Source: a virus
Length of the DNA: 22,395 nt
Direction: 5' to 3' (one strand)
Virus record (IMG/VR): IMGVR_UViG_3300026885_000015
Location: 1-22,395 of that record
Within the stretch, counting starts at the first letter, position 1, and each line of letters opens with the position of its first letter. Below are positions 2,440-22,395 of the stretch, piece after piece. Made by a program: the position numbers and the translations under genes. Under the pieces are notes generated by a model. The model saw only the letters and a list, made by a program, of their open reading frames with translations. It did no database searches and had not been told where the DNA came from.

Positions 2440-2772
2440 TTATTTTTCTTCTTTCCACAGAATTTCTAATCCTTCAATTCTATTCCATGTTATTCTTGCT
2501 TTCTTCAATGTTATCTTGTCATGAGTATGTAAATCTCCAGCAGTAATTTCTATATCTAAGCTTGATTTAAGGATATGTAAAAATTTATAATCGGGATTGT
2601 TTATCAGAAAATTCATTTCTACAAGATTTTCGAAATCTGTAAAGGATACATTAACTAATGTTAAATTTGTAATATGTATATCATATAGATTATTATCATA
2701 TTTGTCATATCTAAATTCTAAATTATTTCTCCTTAAAAAGTCTAAAAGGTCTTTTCCTTCTTTTATCTTCAA
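2440..2772 (-). CDS. Unknown protein (110 aa), last gene of the thyX run
   Basis: No family recognised. It starts with TTG at 2772, and the sequence TTGA overlaps the thyX stop codon, so the two are translationally coupled. That overlap is why I keep the non-ATG start. The N-terminal 15 residues are a basic helix ([13 protein letters not shown]). The middle has alternating short strands ([15 protein letters not shown]), and a Trp-containing C-terminus ends in WKEEK. The order in this run is 92-aa protein, RHH protein, ThyX, then this gene. Position suggests a role related to nucleotide supply or to the same expression phase, but nothing in the sequence shows a catalytic motif. Confidence 0.65.
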
Positions 2773-3530
2773 ATTTCTTCACCTTTTTTGGCATTTTGTA
2801 TACACTTATAAATGCCTTCTTTTGGAACTCCTTCTATACATCTTTGAGATATAAATTCTGTTTTTTCATTTAATAAATCAAGAATTATTGGATTTTCTCG
2901 AATAAAATTTTCATGAATTATGCAATTTGGGCCGACATATTTGAAAAGTTTTGGATGAATTTTTTTAACTAATTCTAACATTTTCCAAGCTAAAGTCCTT
3001 AATTCCCATTGAGTTCTTGAACAAAGTCTTAAAGCAAAAAAGTTATAGAGTTCTCTAGCATTCATAGTAACTACTATATTTGTATTTACGCCGTTAGGTA
3101 AGACATATCTGGCATCTTCTCCCGGAACTCCAGATTCCAAAAGTTTGAAATAATAATTGTAAGCGTCTTCATAAGCTTTGTCAATAATTTCTTTAGCCCT
3201 CCTTTCTGCTGAAGGCGGTATAATTGGCTGATAATATTCATCTATAGGCTTAGCAAAACGATAACTTAATTGAGTATAAGACGCGATTCTATGCCTAACT
3301 AATTGATGTGATGTGACTCTGGAAATTCCTTCAATTGAAAAAGTGTAAACTGAATGTTCTAACACAGACCAATATCCGTGAATTATAGCATCTTTAATCC
3401 AAATTTCTATCTCTTCATCTGTCATTGTTTGCCAATGATAATCCCAACCCTTTCTAGACCTACTCATTTTTGATGCTATAGCTACAATTTTCTCACCGTC
3501 TTTTGTATAAGATATAAGTTCAACTTTCAT
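2769..3530 (-). CDS. thyX: Flavin-dependent thymidylate synthase ThyX
   Basis: FAD-dependent thymidylate synthase, which methylates dUMP to dTMP using methylenetetrahydrofolate and NADPH. The family signature RHRx7S is present as [14 protein letters not shown] (about residues 79-92). A further conserved region, [12 protein letters not shown]-like ([16 protein letters not shown]), precedes it, and [11 protein letters not shown] near residue 170 matches the C-terminal substrate-binding segment. The length of 253 aa fits the family and the 251-aa SIRV protein as I recall it. A GTG at 3539 would add three residues, but GTGAT just upstream of the ATG at 3530 looks like its ribosome binding site. 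It lies 15 nt after the RHH gene in one run with the 92-aa gene, and overlaps the next gene by 4 nt. It supplies thymidine nucleotides for viral DNA synthesis. Confidence 0.95.
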
Positions 3531-3545
3531 TTTTATCACAAATTG

Positions 3546-10870: not shown

Positions 10871-11188
10871 ATGGGCAAAGGTAAAGGAATTCCTAAAAAA
10901 TTCGTTTGTATAATTTGTAAAATCTCAATTTTGAATGAAAGAAAATTTATGAAACATATCGCTGAACATTTTGATGGCGAAAAATGTCCTCTTTGCGGGA
11001 TGAAAATTAGAAGAATTTCAGAACATTTAATATACTATCATATCAGACCAAATAAATCTCGACTATTACGTAGAGATTTAGCAATTTTAGTTAAGGAGTC
11101 TGGAAATTCAGCAATTTTATATGAACCAGAACTTGGTTTGTCAGAAAGTGAGATAAAGTTTATAAAAAGACTAGCTAAAAGGTTTTAA
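10871..11188 (+). CDS. Two-finger C2H2 protein, tandem paralogue 1 (105 aa)
   Basis: First of three adjacent paralogues of equal length. Finger 1 has Cys13, Cys16, His29 and His33. Finger 2 has Cys39, Cys42, His52 and His57 (KCPLCGMKIRRISEHLIYYH). A conserved linker, RPNKSRLLRRDLAILVKES, then leads to a variable segment and a basic C-terminal helix (EIKFIKRLAKRF). All three copies keep the Cys and His positions exactly. Likely DNA-binding, or protein-binding through the second finger. The gene lies 6 nt after the glycosyltransferase stop, so it is probably expressed with it. Confidence 0.88.
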   Translation: MGKGKGIPKKFVCIICKISILNERKFMKHIAEHFDGEKCPLCGMKIRRISEHLIYYHIRPNKSRLLRRDLAILVKESGNSAILYEPELGLSESEIKFIKRLAKRF

Positions 11189-11254: not shown

Positions 11255-11572
11255 ATGACAAACAACAAAGGTACTAAAAAGAGGTTCAAATGTCCATTGT
11301 GCAGATCTGTAGTTTGGACTGAAAAAGAATATTTAAAGCATTTACTAAGTCATTTTGACGGTGAAAGATGTCCGATTTGCAATATGAAAGCTAAACATAA
11401 AGCCTTACATTTGACAGAATATCATGTGCGTCCAAATAAACTGACATTGTTGGAACGAGATCTTGCAATTCTTATTAAAGAATCTAACAATTATGAAATT
11501 CTTAAAGACCCCCAATTTTCATTGACAAGACAAGAAATAAAAACTATTAAAAGATTAATTAAAATGTTGTGA
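11255..11572 (+). CDS. Two-finger C2H2 protein, tandem paralogue 2 (105 aa)
   Basis: Same plan as its neighbours: Cys13, Cys16, His29, His33, then Cys39, Cys42, His52, His57. The linker is RPNKLTLLERDLAILIKES and the basic end is EIKTIKRLIKML. It has its own TATA-GTC promoter and ribosome binding site AGGGG, so its timing can differ from copy 1. The stop is 6 nt from the start of copy 3. The finger 1 helix (WTEKEYLKHLLSH) differs from copy 1 at the positions that usually read DNA, suggesting different targets. Confidence 0.88.
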   Translation: MTNNKGTKKRFKCPLCRSVVWTEKEYLKHLLSHFDGERCPICNMKAKHKALHLTEYHVRPNKLTLLERDLAILIKESNNYEILKDPQFSLTRQEIKTIKRLIKML

Positions 11573-11578
11573 TGTGAC

Positions 11579-11896
11579 ATGGGGAAAACTAGAGGATTTC
11601 CGAAAAAATTCTATTGTCCGATTTGTAAAACATTCTTTAAAAATGTCAAAGAATTTAAAAAACATTTATATAAACATTACGATAAAATAAGGTGTCCTTT
11701 ATGTCTAATGCCGACCGGGAATTTATCTACACATCTTACACTTTATCATATAAAACCCAACCGTTCAAGACTTCTCCATAGGGATTTAGCAATTCTAGTT
11801 AAAGAAGCCGGAACTATGAAAATTTTAAAAGAATTAAATATTAAACTTTCAGATGGAGAAAAAGATTATATTCGAAATTTGTCAAGAATGTTATAG
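11579..11896 (+). CDS. Two-finger C2H2 protein, tandem paralogue 3 (105 aa)
   Basis: Third copy, with identical ligand positions (13, 16, 29, 33, 39, 42, 52, 57) and the linker RPNRSRLL-type sequence (KPNRSRLLHRDLAILVKEA). The N-terminus GKTRGFPKKF is close to that of copy 1 (GKGKGIPKKF), which suggests that copy 3 derives from copy 1 or the reverse. It follows copy 2 after 6 nt and is probably co-transcribed with it. It ends near a convergent gene at 11906. Confidence 0.88.
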   Translation: MGKTRGFPKKFYCPICKTFFKNVKEFKKHLYKHYDKIRCPLCLMPTGNLSTHLTLYHIKPNRSRLLHRDLAILVKEAGTMKILKELNIKLSDGEKDYIRNLSRML

Positions 11897-16139: not shown

Positions 16140-16421
16140 TTATGACTTATATTTTGCTAATTTTTTGCCGTTATAAATTCCCATCAAAGTCGTTAAAAAT
16201 AACACCATCAAGTCATCATCTTCTATAATATTTCCAAATAGATAGCTAAAATATACAATTAGTGAAAGTATATCTATTTTTTTATTTGGATAATTAGTTA
16301 TAATATCTGTAACTGCATATTCTAAATAGCTAACATCTTGTTTTATTCTTTCTATTTGTTCATTGTTTAAATTTAGACGTTCTTTATAAACTTTTATCAC
16401 GAATTCCAAACCTTTATCCAT
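16140..16421 (-). CDS. Small helical protein, paralogue of the one at 17012 (93 aa)
   Basis: The alignment with the 91-aa protein at 17012-17287 is clear along the whole length: Q(R/E)RI..(D/E)V.YL.Y.V, then NYPNKKIDILSLIVYFSYLFG matching KYPDGKIEPLSFIVYVAYVLG, then IIEDDD matching IIDDNE, then FL..L.G.YN.KK. All-helical with a hydrophobic central segment (ILSLIVYFSYLFGNII), which could be a buried helix rather than a membrane span. Function unknown. The gene diverges from the Holliday junction resolvase gene through a symmetric double promoter. Confidence 0.7.
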   Translation of the reverse strand: MDKGLEFVIKVYKERLNLNNEQIERIKQDVSYLEYAVTDIITNYPNKKIDILSLIVYFSYLFGNIIEDDDLMVLFLTTLMGIYNGKKLAKYKS

Positions 16422-16859: not shown

Positions 16860-17019
16860 ATTATATTTAGCTCTAGACGATCTAACTTTAGCTTTAGCAA
16901 CTTGTGATAATGAGAATGTTAGAAAATCTGAAGTTTTCCAAAAAGCTCTTGAAGTTGCGAAAGTTTTAAAAGAAATGAGAAAATTACAAGTAAAAATTGA
17001 GGAAGAGAAAAATGAATGA
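16810..17019 (+). CDS. Small helical unknown protein (69 aa)
   Basis: No family recognised. It overlaps the resolvase gene by 50 nt in another frame, with its own TATA-GTC promoter. The basic N-terminus (SEQKRKSNLST) is followed by two helices (AKLYLALDDLTLALATCDNE and SEVFQKALEVAKVLKEM) and a charged coiled-coil-like tail (RKLQVKIEEEKNE). This looks like a helical hairpin. The next gene starts within its last codons, so the two are co-expressed. Confidence 0.65.
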   Translation: MSEQKRKSNLSTEITAKLYLALDDLTLALATCDNENVRKSEVFQKALEVAKVLKEMRKLQVKIEEEKNE

Positions 17020-17287
17020 AGATAAAGAAGGATTAAAAGCATATTTAAACTATATAAAACTAACATTTGACCTTAGTAATAAAAAGATGCAAAGAATAGA
17101 AAAAGAAGTTAAATATTTATATTATGAAGTGTATAAAGTATTAGAGAAATATCCAGATGGAAAAATAGAACCGCTTTCTTTTATTGTCTATGTAGCTTAC
17201 GTTTTAGGAGCGATTATTGATGATAATGAGACTCTAGAAAAATTCATAGAAGTTCTAAAAGATTTATATAATATGAAAAAAACATAA
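17012..17287 (+). CDS. Small helical protein, paralogue of the one at 16140 (91 aa)
   Basis: Paralogue of the 93-aa protein on the other side of the resolvase gene, in opposite orientation. Conserved pattern: KMQRIEKEVKYLYYEVYKVL, then EKYPDGKIEPLSFIVYVAYV, then LGAIIDDNETLEKFIEVLKD, then LYNMKK. The start is ATG 17012 (GAGGAAGAGAAAA upstream is a good ribosome binding site), while the TTG at 16997 falls in that site. It overlaps the 69-aa gene by 8 nt. Function unknown. Keeping two divergent copies suggests distinct targets. Confidence 0.7.
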   Translation: MNEDKEGLKAYLNYIKLTFDLSNKKMQRIEKEVKYLYYEVYKVLEKYPDGKIEPLSFIVYVAYVLGAIIDDNETLEKFIEVLKDLYNMKKT

Positions 17288-17974: not shown

Positions 17975-20900
17975 ATGAGTTTCTTTAATCCATTAGGGGC
18001 TTTAGAAAGCGTAGGGACATTTTTTTCAGATGAACTCAGTGCTCTGGAAAATTTTGTAAATTGGATAAGTTCAGATTTTATTAACTTTTTTAATACTGTA
18101 TCTAAAGATATTCAAAATTTTGTAAGTTTCATAGGTCAAGCAATTTCTGATATTCCGACATTTATACAAAAAATTGGAAATTATTTCTTACAAGTTTTAC
18201 AAAATTTTGTACAAACTGCAAGTTCTGCAATTTCCGGATTTATATCATGGTTTGCACAACAAGTCCAAAATTTCTTTCAAGATTTAGCAAATGTAGCGTC
18301 CGGATTTCTAAATGCAGTTTACGGTTTCTTTACAGATATAGCTAACGTTTTTGCCACAATTCTTAGCTCAATTGTTAACGATTTCTTAAGCGGGTTCGGT
18401 CAAAGTCTTAGTCATGTAGGTTCTGCAATTTCTCAAATTTCTCAATTTTTAACACCATTTATCGCACCAATTACAATTGGCAAATTTCTTCCAGCTATAA
18501 TTGATAAATTAGCTGAAATTTTGCCGGAAGTCGAAATAGACCTTTCTCCAGTCGGTCTCGGTGGGAAAGTACCGATTAAATTTGGAGAAATTATTAAAGC
18601 TTTCGCTGAAACTGCTGTAGACTTTTTTAATGAAGTAAGGGTTGAAGCCCAAAACACTTTGAAAGAATTTATTAAAGAACCATTTATTTCAGATTTCAAG
18701 ATTTCAGCTAGAGAATTATTTAATCAAATTGGTCTTGGAGACCTCCCGTTTGCAGACCCGCCATTTCAGCTAATTGCAAAATGGGTATCTGTAAGATCAT
18801 TTGACGAAATTAAAGACCATTTAAAGGAAACAATTCTACTTACCGGATATCCGGAATGGTTTACAGATGCTTATTTATCTCCTCCAACTGATGATTTTGT
18901 ACCCGGAAATCCGCTTTTCAAATCTGTATCAATTCGTGATGTAATTCTAGCTTCTCAATACGGAATTTTAGATATTTCTGCTGTTTCTCAATATGCATAT
19001 AATAATTTAATAACTCCAAAAACTTCTAAATTAATGTATCAAAATGAGACCGCAAGACTTCTACAAAAAGCTGTAGAACAAGGAATTAGACAGTTTGTAA
19101 TTTCTCCAGAAGACGCTTATTCCGAAATAATACAGAATGTTAATTTATCTGGAAAAGATTTGTATTTAAAATATTTCAAATTAGAATATAATTACGCTGT
19201 ACAGAGGATTGTTAGACAATTCCTCAGATCACTTTTATCCAGGGCTTTATCAGATTACGGAAGACCGTATGTGGATTTAAAATATCTAGAAACTACAGTT
19301 AATACAATATTTAAAGAACTTAATTATCCGAAACAAGTTCAAGATGTTTTTAATGTTATGATCACTCAATCACAACTTGTATATTCCAATCAACTTATCT
19401 TGAGTCAACTAGAACAAATTACCAGACTTGGGATTTTTAATGAAAATCAAGTAAACAAAATCTTGAAAGATAACAATTTTAATGAACAAATTGCGTTAGA
19501 AATTCTTAACTTTGAACTTCAATATTCACAACTAAGATATCAGATTTCACAAATTGAGGATTTAGTTAAGAAAGGATATCTAACTCCAGATGATGCTGTA
19601 AAACAATTACATAGTTTAGGCATGGTTAAAGCTTTTGCTGATATAATTGTAAATTATGCAAATCAAGAAATTGCGATATCTTCAACAATTTCGATTCTGA
19701 GAGGATTGTTGAGAAACTTTTTGACAGATTCTCAAACTGTTCAATCCGAATTATATAAATTGAAAATTAATGAGAATTTAATAAACGAGATAATAAAAGA
19801 AGAATATAACATAAATATTGCCAAATTACAATTATCATATATAGAAACTTTAGCTAAGAATTTATATTATGACCAAAATCAATTAACTGGGGAATTATCT
19901 AAAATTTTGAAAGATAGGACTGCAATAGACCTTTATGCCCAAAAATTCTATTATGAATATGTATTTCCAAAAATAGTTAATTATTACGTAAGTTTAGCAA
20001 GACATGGTATAATTGGAAATATTAAAAATTTGCCGAAAGAAGTCGTGGATTATGAAATTAATCCAGAAATCCAAATTTTTCAACTTACAACAGAATTAGA
20101 ATACATAAAATCATTATTAAAAGATTTACAAATAACTCAAGATAAAGCAGTTCAAGAATTAGAGAAATTAGGGATGCAAAAAGATTTAGCTAATTTATTT
20201 GTACAAACTTATACTCCAATACTTTATAGTTTACATACAATTATTGGAAATATTATAGAAGGTCAACTTTATAAAGTCGGGAAGATTCCAATTAATTTAG
20301 GAAATGCTGAATCACAATTAAGACAACTAGGAATTCCAAATGATCAAATAAAAGTTTTATTAGACCAATATGCCTCCAGTTTCGGATTAGAAATTTGGAG
20401 GAAATTCTTACCTTCACTTTCTCAAATTGAAACTGCAATAAAATATAATTTCCCGATTAATCAATTAGTTGAATATTCATTTATACCTTCTGAATTTCTA
20501 AATCTTTATTCCAATTTATACCAATATGAATTAGTGGGACAATATGTACAATCTCTCAAGACTGATTATGTAGAATTGTTAGTTTATGGAGTTCAAAATA
20601 TACAACTAGAAAGTTTATTAAAACAATATGGAATAAATGATGTATTATTAGGAGTTCTAAAATTATCTGCACAAATTAAGAAAATATTAACGGCTTACCA
20701 AGAATTATATTTGACTCCATCTAAAGCACTTTCTGTTGCTGAATATGTATCAAATCCAACTCAACTTCTACAAAAAATATTCTCAGAATTTTCAGTTCCT
20801 TCAGATTTACAAAATACTTATCTTGAGTATACAATAAATAGAAGAGTTAGGACTTATGTAAACGAAATAATATCAACAATTAGTTTATTAATCGAGAAAG

Positions 20901-21025
20901 GCAAAATTGACTTAGGAACTGCTCAATCTTATCTACAACAACTGCAAAAATATGGATTAACAAATGATGAAATCCAGTTAATCTTATTAAATTGGCAGTT
21001 ACGCTCAAATTTGTCAAGTTCATAA
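17975..21025 (+). CDS. Large minor structural protein, SIRV ORF1070 homologue (1016 aa)
   Basis: Identified by size, position and composition as the counterpart of the 1070-residue SIRV virion protein. Residues 1-165 are an unusual series of amphipathic helices rich in Phe and Trp (FFSDELSALENFVNWISSDF and similar) with no Lys or Arg clusters, resembling membrane- or sheath-contacting segments. Residues about 470-1010 contain at least seven degenerate helical-hairpin repeats. Each has hydrophobic residues, a Gly or Leu turn, Ala, then a Leu-rich helix and often LG(M/I), for example IEDLVKKGYLTPDDAVKQL at 526, IKSLLKDLQITQDKAVQEL at 711 and ISLLIEKGKIDLGTAQSYL at 969. This suggests a long alpha-helical rod or fibre, possibly the terminal fibres. 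A short gap to the next gene implies shared mRNA. Confidence 0.85.
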   Translation: MSFFNPLGALESVGTFFSDELSALENFVNWISSDFINFFNTVSKDIQNFVSFIGQAISDIPTFIQKIGNYFLQVLQNFVQTASSAISGFISWFAQQVQNFFQDLANVASGFLNAVYGFFTDIANVFATILSSIVNDFLSGFGQSLSHVGSAISQISQFLTPFIAPITIGKFLPAIIDKLAEILPEVEIDLSPVGLGGKVPIKFGEIIKAFAETAVDFFNEVRVEAQNTLKEFIKEPFISDFKISARELFNQIGLGDLPFADPPFQLIAKWVSVRSFDEIKDHLKETILLTGYPEWFTDAYLSPPTDDFVPGNPLFKSVSIRDVILASQYGILDISAVSQYAYNNLITPKTSKLMYQNETARLLQKAVEQGIRQFVISPEDAYSEIIQNVNLSGKDLYLKYFKLEYNYAVQRIVRQFLRSLLSRALSDYGRPYVDLKYLETTVNTIFKELNYPKQVQDVFNVMITQSQLVYSNQLILSQLEQITRLGIFNENQVNKILKDNNFNEQIALEILNFELQYSQLRYQISQIEDLVKKGYLTPDDAVKQLHSLGMVKAFADIIVNYANQEIAISSTISILRGLLRNFLTDSQTVQSELYKLKINENLINEIIKEEYNINIAKLQLSYIETLAKNLYYDQNQLTGELSKILKDRTAIDLYAQKFYYEYVFPKIVNYYVSLARHGIIGNIKNLPKEVVDYEINPEIQIFQLTTELEYIKSLLKDLQITQDKAVQELEKLGMQKDLANLFVQTYTPILYSLHTIIGNIIEGQLYKVGKIPINLGNAESQLRQLGIPNDQIKVLLDQYASSFGLEIWRKFLPSLSQIETAIKYNFPINQLVEYSFIPSEFLNLYSNLYQYELVGQYVQSLKTDYVELLVYGVQNIQLESLLKQYGINDVLLGVLKLSAQIKKILTAYQELYLTPSKALSVAEYVSNPTQLLQKIFSEFSVPSDLQNTYLEYTINRRVRTYVNEIISTISLLIEKGKIDLGTAQSYLQQLQKYGLTNDEIQLILLNWQLRSNLSSS

Positions 21026-21035
21026 ATTATATCTC

Positions 21036-21848
21036 ATGAGTGTAAACCTCTGTAGATATGAGGCAGAAAATATAAGTTATAAAGATTTAGAAAATTTTAA
21101 AGAACTAGTTTTTTATGAGATAAAATATGATGGAACACATATATGTCTGAAATACGAGAATGAATTGAAAATACATACTAGAAAAGATATACCGCATGAA
21201 AAAACTTTTCAAGAACTTTTCATGAAAGTCCCGGGAATTGAAGAAGTTATAAACTATATAAAGAAGAATCCACAATTTATAATTCATGGGGAACTTGTAC
21301 ATAAAAAGACATCAGCATTACAGATTCATCAAAATGAAATTCCACAATTTATCATATATGATGTCTTTGACAAAGAAAATAATAGATATCTAAATCCGTT
21401 TGAAATCGATGATGAAATTTCCAAATGGTATCCGGAAATTTGTTTACATGCTGAAGACTTACTTGACATTATAACTAAGGAAAGACTTGAGGGATTAGTA
21501 GCTAAAATTTATAATCCGAAATTCACGATTTGTGAAGAAGGTAGAAATTTCAATTTATGTCTTTACAAATATAAGCCATATTATTCTGTACTTGGCGTAA
21601 TATTTAAGCCGGTCAAAGGACAAATTGATGTTAGAAAATTAGCGTTTCTTCTTGGAGAAATTGATAACGATTTGAAAAACGGAAAAGATGATTGGTATAA
21701 AAATCATCCAGGACTTTATGACTTCTTTATTGAGAATAAAAACAAGATAATTCAAATTTTGCAAAATGAGAATTACATATTACAAATTGAGAAACAAACA
21801 CATTTAGATATAAGAAAAATTATAGAATATATTGTAAATTTCAAATAA
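21036..21848 (+). CDS. Predicted polynucleotide ligase-family nucleotidyltransferase (270 aa)
   Basis: All motifs of the covalent nucleotidyltransferase superfamily (ATP-dependent DNA/RNA ligases, capping enzymes) appear in order. Motif I is EIKYDGTH with catalytic Lys30. Motif Ia is IHTRKD (Arg49). Motif III is FIIHGELV (Glu86), and IIIa is FIIYDVFD (residues 105-112). Motif IV is EGLVAK (Glu152 to Lys157), and motif V is LYKYKP (Lys178, Lys180). About 90 residues remain after motif V, mostly helical, rather than a clear OB fold, so it resembles the short RNA-ligase (Rnl) type more than host-type replicative DNA ligases. It starts 10 nt after the 1016-aa structural gene and is probably co-transcribed. 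It may seal nicks in viral DNA (hairpin ends) or repair RNA such as cleaved tRNA. I do not recall such a gene in SIRV. Confidence 0.82.
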   Translation: MSVNLCRYEAENISYKDLENFKELVFYEIKYDGTHICLKYENELKIHTRKDIPHEKTFQELFMKVPGIEEVINYIKKNPQFIIHGELVHKKTSALQIHQNEIPQFIIYDVFDKENNRYLNPFEIDDEISKWYPEICLHAEDLLDIITKERLEGLVAKIYNPKFTICEEGRNFNLCLYKYKPYYSVLGVIFKPVKGQIDVRKLAFLLGEIDNDLKNGKDDWYKNHPGLYDFFIENKNKIIQILQNENYILQIEKQTHLDIRKIIEYIVNFK

Positions 21849-21888: not shown

Positions 21889-21908
21889 TGTTTTTATTTT
21901 TGTCATTT
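21889..21908 (+). promoter_or_regulatory. TATA + GTC promoter of the last structural gene
   Basis: TGTTTTTATTTTTGTCATTT with GTC at 21902-21904, about 20 nt before the ATG at 21924. Upstream, ATGCAATATTCATTATAT (21856-21873) is also found at 6597-6614. Confidence 0.65.
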
Positions 21909-21923
21909 CTCAGTTTTTATTTA

Positions 21924-22395
21924 ATGAGTTTACCTTACAAAGTACAATATAAGCTTCCTCTAGAATATCTCACTTTGCAAGACTGGAATAACTTTGTGCA
22001 AAATTTACTCTTTTTGAATCAATATGGTTCAGCAAAACTTCTTCAATATTACAAAAATGGAAACTTCCAAAATCTTAATGATGTAATTGCTGAATATTTA
22101 TATGTTTCGGCTTTAAAAGTCATGGGATATAATGTTTTGCATAATCTATCAAAACCGTTAGCTTATATTTTTGGTGAAGGAAATCAACAGCCGTTTGAAA
22201 GCATGTCTCAAAGACCAACTGTAAGTTTCCCATATTCAATACCATTCGAATTTATACAATTTTATCCATTATCTGAATTGCCTAACTATAAACTTCCAAT
22301 TTTTCCAGTTGAAAAATTACAAGTTCAATTAGCTCAAGTTAGCAAACAATTACAATTATTAATTCCTAAGATAGTTTCGAAAATTGTAACTCCGA
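21924..22395 (+). CDS. Minor structural protein, SIRV ORF564 homologue (partial, N-terminal 157 codons)
   Basis: An open frame from ATG 21924 to the window edge, without stop. The visible part starts MSLPYKVQYKLPLEYLTLQD and is rich in Leu, Gln, Tyr and Pro with few charges, like the other two large virion proteins. Residues about 75-120 include Pro- and Phe-rich loops (SFPYSIPFEFIQFYPLSELP). Position directly after the ORF1070 counterpart matches the ORF564 virion protein of SIRV, but with the ligase-like gene inserted between them. It has its own TATA-GTC promoter. Assignment rests on position and composition, since only about a quarter of the expected protein is visible. Confidence 0.7.
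   Translation, partial: MSLPYKVQYKLPLEYLTLQDWNNFVQNLLFLNQYGSAKLLQYYKNGNFQNLNDVIAEYLYVSALKVMGYNVLHNLSKPLAYIFGEGNQQPFESMSQRPTVSFPYSIPFEFIQFYPLSELPNYKLPIFPVEKLQVQLAQVSKQLQLLIPKIVSKIVTP

Follow-up and report, generated by a model that had tools for sequence, protein, structure and literature searches.

The DNA analysed here, a stretch of 22,395 nucleotides from a single virus record that we call the window, encodes on its plus strand (21036-21848, ATG start) a 270-aa protein that sequence and structure modelling together predict to be an ATP-dependent polynucleotide ligase of the RNA-ligase (PF09414) type. The gene carries the motifs of the covalent nucleotidyltransferases, is modelled with their fold, evolves under purifying selection, is preceded by a promoter-like element, has no consistently co-occurring partner gene, and is dispensable. 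Our leading, still tentative, reading is that usarudiviruses carry it as an accessory, minimal RNA-type ligase that would repair RNA breaks inflicted by the host.

Catalytic motifs and family assignment

The sequence-only reading had recognized motifs I to V, in the right order, in this 270-aa protein, and alignment confirms their positions: motif I (K30-Y-D-G33, 21123-21134, signature KYDGTH), which would provide the nucleophile Lys30, motif Ia (T48-R49, 21177-21182), motif III (G85-E86-L87-V88, 21288-21299), motif IIIa (Y108-D-V-F-D112, 21357-21371), motif IV (E152-G-L-V-A-K157, 21489-21506), and motif V (K178-Y-K180, 21567-21575), all on the plus strand. Within the family these motifs are strictly kept, as K30, D32, G33, T48, R49, G85, E86, the whole of Y108-D112, E152, G153, K157, K178, and K180 are identical in each of the 14 homologues aligned; the predicted nucleophile is thus conserved in 14/14. 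The structure model delimits a nucleotidyltransferase domain at residues 1-182 (21036-21581, plus strand), followed by a C-terminal domain at residues 183-270 (21582-21845, plus strand), modelled as all-helical, for which a separate search of Pfam returned nothing above cut-off. The motif order, written as a regular expression, was found in one of 200,000 shuffles of the protein, a figure that serves as a guide and not as a formal significance level, since the expression was composed with the protein already in view. Run over the rudiviral and T4 loci, in which 409 ORFs reach 150 aa, the expression retrieved only the ligase family and one T4 ORF of 337 aa, whose length and position are those of RNA ligase 2. 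The median pairwise dN/dS of 0.16 indicates purifying selection, and the ORF is therefore a genuine, constrained gene.

Concerning the correspondence with known ligases, we produced unsupervised MAFFT alignments of the family with T4-Rnl2-like and T7-ligase-like proteins from several inputs; trimming the partner sequences lost the register of motif IV or V in some variants, and the variant used for the structure model was picked once the registers were known. The Lys of motif I and the Glu of motif III are in register in all variants tried, and so is the residue of motif IIIa in almost every one. For the Glu of motif IV this holds where the T7 set was aligned at full length, and motif V (K178, K180) lines up with T7 ligases of full length, not with Rnl2. 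Motif Ia, invariant within the family, is out of register with both references in the alignments tried, by one column against Rnl2 and by two or three against T7 ligases. In an alignment of 63 sequences, K30, G33, E86, E152, and G153 are invariant and common to the three families (the viral ligases, Rnl2, and T7 ligase), as is, in the C-terminal part, G207 invariant. On these alignments, motifs I and III are strongly supported by their register, IIIa and IV well, V less so, and Ia not at all.

Two Pfam profiles match the protein above their gathering cut-offs, RNA_ligase (PF09414) with 41.9 bits against a cut-off of 27 (E 1.6e-10) and DNA_ligase_A_M (PF01068) with 30.9 bits against 26.2 (E 2.8e-7). 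The best stretch of the latter is confined to residues 16-92, and each profile is matched by 14 of the 14 family members at E <= 0.1. NCBIfam gave matches to DNA ligases only, all sub-threshold, and the top PHROG, phrog_12949, is annotated as of unknown function. The protein has no match to the Rnl3 profiles PF18330 and TIGR01209, in a search that had no positive control, to the Rnl1 families PF09511 and PF20819, both recovered in the T4 Rnl1 control, or to the Rnl2 C-terminal family PF18043, recovered in the T4 Rnl2 control; no OB domain of Pfam was found either, and the T7 ligase control gave PF17879. Sequence searches of the PDB yielded no credible match, and a lysine decarboxylase, the sole match in one search, was judged spurious. 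Profile-profile comparison with single or narrow sets of T4 and T7 ligases gave no signal, because the profile of the viral family is too narrow. The motifs, the two Pfam matches, and the fold matches described below make the enzyme class well supported, and the protein can be placed in the covalent nucleotidyltransferase superfamily as had been proposed from its sequence.

Structure model and probable substrate

AlphaFold returned a nucleotidyltransferase fold (pLDDT 81, pTM 0.75) from an alignment of 63 rows including distant ligases, and a fold that was not usable (pLDDT 38) from the eight own homologues alone. The distant rows might bias the fold, and comparison with an independent model is therefore important: the model that BFVD offers for the SIRV11 homologue, which was independently made, agrees with ours at a TM-score of 0.90 and 2.8 Å over 270 alignment columns. 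Searched with Foldseek against the PDB, the model matches ligases down to E 1.4e-7, the value of the first-ranked archaeal Rnl3. Ranks 1-20 are RNA or tRNA ligases, with the exception of an entry from Aquifex that bears the title putative DNA ligase, while further DNA ligases appear from rank 21 on; in a viral structure library, the top named matches are mostly RNA ligases, the SIRV11 family model aside. The sequence-only reading had also pointed to the lack of an obvious OB fold, and this is borne out, as the C-terminal 88 residues (183-270) are helical in both AlphaFold runs, at pLDDT 38 as at pLDDT 81, and match no OB family in Pfam.

The best PDB fold match, archaeal Rnl3 (2VUG, 5D1O, 8UCF), is an RNA ligase from thermophilic archaea, namely Pyrococcus for 2VUG, Methanothermobacter for 5D1O, and Palaeococcus for 8UCF. 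It shares only 13-16% identity with the viral ligase and is longer (about 375 aa versus 270 aa), and the nucleophilic Lys, predicted at residue 30 in the virus, is residue 92 in Palaeococcus Rnl3, according to the title of the K92A entry. T4 RNA ligase 2 (rnlB) shares the PF09414 domain and has motifs I, III, and IIIa in register with the viral protein; however, its motif I is KIHGTN (the KxHGxN of the Rnl2 type) instead of KYDGTH, its motif V is unregistered, and it has a PF18043 C-terminal domain that the viral protein lacks. T4 RNA ligase 1 (rnlA) is likewise a viral RNA ligase, with a tail-fibre connection also, and shares with the viral ligase closely spaced motifs I-V and a helical C-terminal domain, but differs in its Pfam families. 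T7-type ATP-dependent DNA ligases align exactly at motifs I, III, IIIa, IV, and V over their full length, with motif Ia two columns off, but have both an OB domain and the KxDGxR form of motif I, and the viral protein has neither.

This last difference bears on the substrate. Motif I reads KYDGTH in 15 of 15 ligase genes, that is, without the Arg of DNA ligases, and KxDGxR is present in T7-type, T4, and 12 bacterial DNA ligases, the bacterial ones being examples chosen by that pattern. A DNA-ligase reading is weakened by this motif and by the C-terminal domain without OB fold. With VIA-align, the nucleotidyltransferase domain reaches practically equal Z-scores against RNA ligases (12.7) and DNA ligases (12.5), the Rnl3 value of 12.7 belonging to a match of 201 residues that spans the model from 1 to 270, and this domain alone therefore leaves the substrate undecided. 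The higher score of PF09414 over PF01068, the first rank of Rnl3 in Foldseek, and the absence of KxDGxR and of an OB domain agree with the leaning towards an RNA ligase expressed in the sequence-only reading, and on sequence and model the protein is RNA-ligase-like without being placed in Rnl1 or Rnl2. Against this, the C-terminal domain is unmatched by the known C-terminal Pfam families of RNA ligases.

The same gene is present in the related virus SIRV11 (A0A1X9SKF1, phrog_12949; 77% identity to the ligase of the window), where UniProt automatically names the product 'RNA ligase domain-containing protein' and GenBank 'hypothetical protein'. The ligase is thus partly known already through automatic annotation, and a full-text search of open-licence papers retrieved no description of a rudiviral RNA or DNA ligase.

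Genomic context, distribution, and history

The ligase gene lies, as previously read, between two virion genes: upstream, the homologue of SIRV2 ORF1070 (17975-21025, plus strand; phrog_7334), a minor structural protein termed tail fibre protein in SIRV2 (PMC7911016), and downstream, the homologue of SIRV2 ORF564 (phrog_7548), which starts at 21924 on the plus strand and runs off the window at 22395. A putative viral promoter element of TATA/GTC type, AAATTTGTCA (21007-21016, plus strand), precedes the ligase at a conserved position. In 15 of 15 ligase genes, TTTGTCA begins at precisely 26 nt upstream of the ATG, also when, as in the window, this position falls inside the coding tail of ORF1070. 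Upstream of the genes of SIRV4, TGTCA within 45 nt is about tenfold enriched (25 occurrences versus 2.6 expected), and SIRV promoters are known to have a GTC motif downstream of their TATA box (PMC5569661). From this fixed spacing, enrichment, and precedent, the ligase probably has its own GTC-type viral promoter. A further TTTGTCA (21899-21905, plus strand) stands 25 nt before ORF564 and is kept at sites without ligase, such as those of V3 and V65.

Two features of the locus vary. The tail of ORF1070 is extended through the ligase promoter element (21007-21025) in the window, in SIRV10, and in contigs L001 and L007, and has no such extension in V60 and SIRV4. In contig L029 (10021-10445), a divergent ligase is separated from ORF564 by an unusually long gap, which may hold another short reading frame.

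Homologues were found only in the Yellowstone usarudiviruses SIRV4-11, in isolate V60, and in related contigs, where they are annotated as hypothetical proteins or left unannotated. In all loci read, the ligase occupies one site, between the counterparts of ORF1070 and ORF564. The same two genes are adjacent, without ligase, in V3, V65, and SIRV1-3, and in contigs L028, L030-L033, L040, and L047. Profile searches with PF09414 and PF01068 found no such gene in SIRV2, SBRV1, ARV1, ARV2, SRV, SSRV1, SMRV1, MRV1, V3, or V65, nor in two lipothrixviruses, three bicaudaviruses, and one ampullavirus. The plasmids searched have no homologue, and none appeared in genome contigs scanned with two short peptide patterns, a scan that may miss host homologues; a profile search of Actinomycetota, also without a homologue, is uninformative. 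Sulfolobus acidocaldarius has a PF09414 match at E <= 0.01 and none at 1e-8, which may be its DNA ligase. Given that V3 and V65, lytic isolates as is V60 (PMC9319562), SIRV1-3, and several contigs are without it, the ligase is an accessory gene, dispensable for growth in culture.

Concerning its history, ligase distances track those of ORF1070 (Mantel r 0.78, 0 of 5000 permutations), with local exceptions such as V60 versus L005. Since the gene diverges in step with ORF1070 and is preceded by a viral-type promoter element of its own, it is a long-standing resident of the genus, with losses or exchanges, and not a newcomer. Of the horizontal gain considered in the sequence-only reading, an acquisition at the base of the genus may thus be true, whereas a recent arrival within the genus is not supported. 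In the ligases of L005 and L007, residues about 183-200 carry a block of FEKLKTIISKNIKNIDSL type in place of the usual FSTLGVIFKPIRREIDVR, a swap that suggests segmental exchange between ligase alleles.

Other genes of the window and its relatives also deserve mention. A ThyX thymidylate synthase (PF02511, 211 bits) is encoded at 2769-3539 on the minus strand; it was not found in the records of SIRV2, SIRV4, 5, 9, 10, 11, V3, V60, and V65, and among the other rudiviruses searched occurs in ARV1 and SRV only. The Holliday junction resolvase gene is flanked, on opposite strands, by the genes of two small proteins that are paralogues of each other (16140-16421, minus, and 16997-17287, plus; 38% identity, E 2e-19). 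Three evidently alike proteins of 105 aa, zinc-finger-like with paired CxxC and H-H, are encoded in tandem on the plus strand (10871-11188, 11255-11572, 11579-11896). In SIRV9 (NC_034620.1, 16729-17118), the Holliday junction resolvase is unannotated at its usual place, unlike in relatives, and its gene was possibly missed or is broken.

Possible roles in infection

If the protein is active as its motifs suggest, Lys30 would take AMP from ATP, the AMP would be passed on to a 5'-phosphate strand end, and the adenylylated end would then be joined to a 3'-OH. During infection, the enzyme would seal breaks made by host ribonucleases in tRNA or other structured RNA, with a role in counter-defence or fitness comparable to that of T4 RNA ligase, though without a recognized viral partner kinase. 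Among the genomes compared, the ligase is itself the sole ORF common to SIRV4, 5, 9, 10, 11, and V60 and absent from V3 and V65, and no kinase of the AAA_33 family was found in the ten records searched, so that no partner is visible. A link with the ring nuclease family PF08960 was also considered and dropped, as this family is present in SIRV2 and every usarudivirus tested lacks it.

A lone ligase of this superfamily requires 5'-phosphate and 3'-OH ends, and cuts by VapC toxins, which are PIN-domain proteins, are expected to leave such ends. Lacking a partner kinase, the viral enzyme would suit cuts of this kind. VapBC systems occur in great abundance in Sulfolobales, S. islandicus among them (PMC3718332), and antitoxin homologues in some usarudiviruses have been proposed to counter host toxin systems (PMC11065993). 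It is the end chemistry of a lone ligase, the abundance of VapBC, and these antitoxin homologues that make repair of host-inflicted RNA breaks the best single reading, one that may well be right and in which the enzymatic activity, RNA rather than DNA as the substrate, and a host nuclease as the opponent are inferred. However, the gene sits in the structural block and not at the early-gene position expected for counter-defence. A more specific version, in which a stand-alone, kinase-free ligase, with a C-terminal domain unlike those recognized in known RNA ligases, undoes the damage of toxins (VapC or HEPN) or CRISPR-ancillary RNases, as an archaeal parallel to T4 tRNA repair, is possible though rather unlikely.

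The protein could instead be a small DNA ligase, supplementing that of the host, that closes nicked hairpin ends after Hjr has resolved replication concatemers. SIRV2 Hjr does leave nicked hairpins that require a ligase in vitro and are sealable by DNA ligase (PMC3157427), and the PF01068 score above cut-off, the exact alignment of full-length T7 DNA ligases at motif IV (EGLVAK) and motif V, and the equal VIA Z-scores would all be compatible with this. However, beyond the form of motif I and the missing OB domain, SIRV2, SBRV1, V3, V65, and the other rudiviruses searched have neither PF01068 nor PF09414, V3 and V65 being lytic members of the same genus. Rudiviruses have a hairpin-ended replication scheme in common, yet relatives manage without the gene, and hairpin sealing thus has no need of it. 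We consider a DNA ligase unlikely, and end-sealing at maturation, which the sequence-only reading had suggested from the position among late genes, does not stand as a requirement, both because the flanking genes are adjacent without ligase in SIRV1-3, V3, and V65 and because the protein lacks the DNA-ligase features.

Somewhat less probable still is that the enzyme mainly adenylylates RNA 5' ends, as a cap-like or protective mark, instead of joining strands. The nearest fold is that of Rnl3, and the Palaeococcus enzyme is reported to adenylylate strongly and to ligate weakly (PMC12153264), but the sequence of the viral protein offers nothing to separate the two activities.

The gene might also encode a factor of terminal-fibre morphogenesis, after the manner of T4 RNA ligase 1, with a ligase fold that is possibly non-catalytic. 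Its place directly between ORF1070, the tail-fibre protein, and ORF564, the promoter-type element it has in common with ORF564, and its divergence in step with ORF1070 would fit such a role, as would the annotation of T4 rnlA as both RNA ligase and tail fibre attachment catalyst. We nevertheless hold this to be very doubtful, since V3 and V65 are infectious with both virion genes and without the ligase (PMC9319562), and since strict conservation of the catalytic motifs would be superfluous in a protein whose role is purely structural. Equally doubtful is a processing role unrelated to defence, the resealing of viral RNAs or the making of circular RNA, for although archaeal Rnl3 circularizes RNAs (PMC12153264) and the locus points to no defined substrate, the window has no viral tRNA gene and the ligase is dispensable.

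Repair of RNA cut by the host, already raised in the sequence-only reading as defence against nucleases, thus remains the reading we prefer, and the ligase is probably an optional viral tool, perhaps directed against host RNA-cutting defences. What makes it of interest is the group of viruses that carries it and the natural pairs of presence and absence, for with matched isolates that have the gene (V60, SIRV4-11) or lack it (V3, V65) its function is open to direct test. If the RNA-repair reading is true, it would show that warfare through RNA damage takes place in archaeal infections, and would provide a small ligase from a virus whose relative SIRV2 is reported to infect at 70-80 °C.
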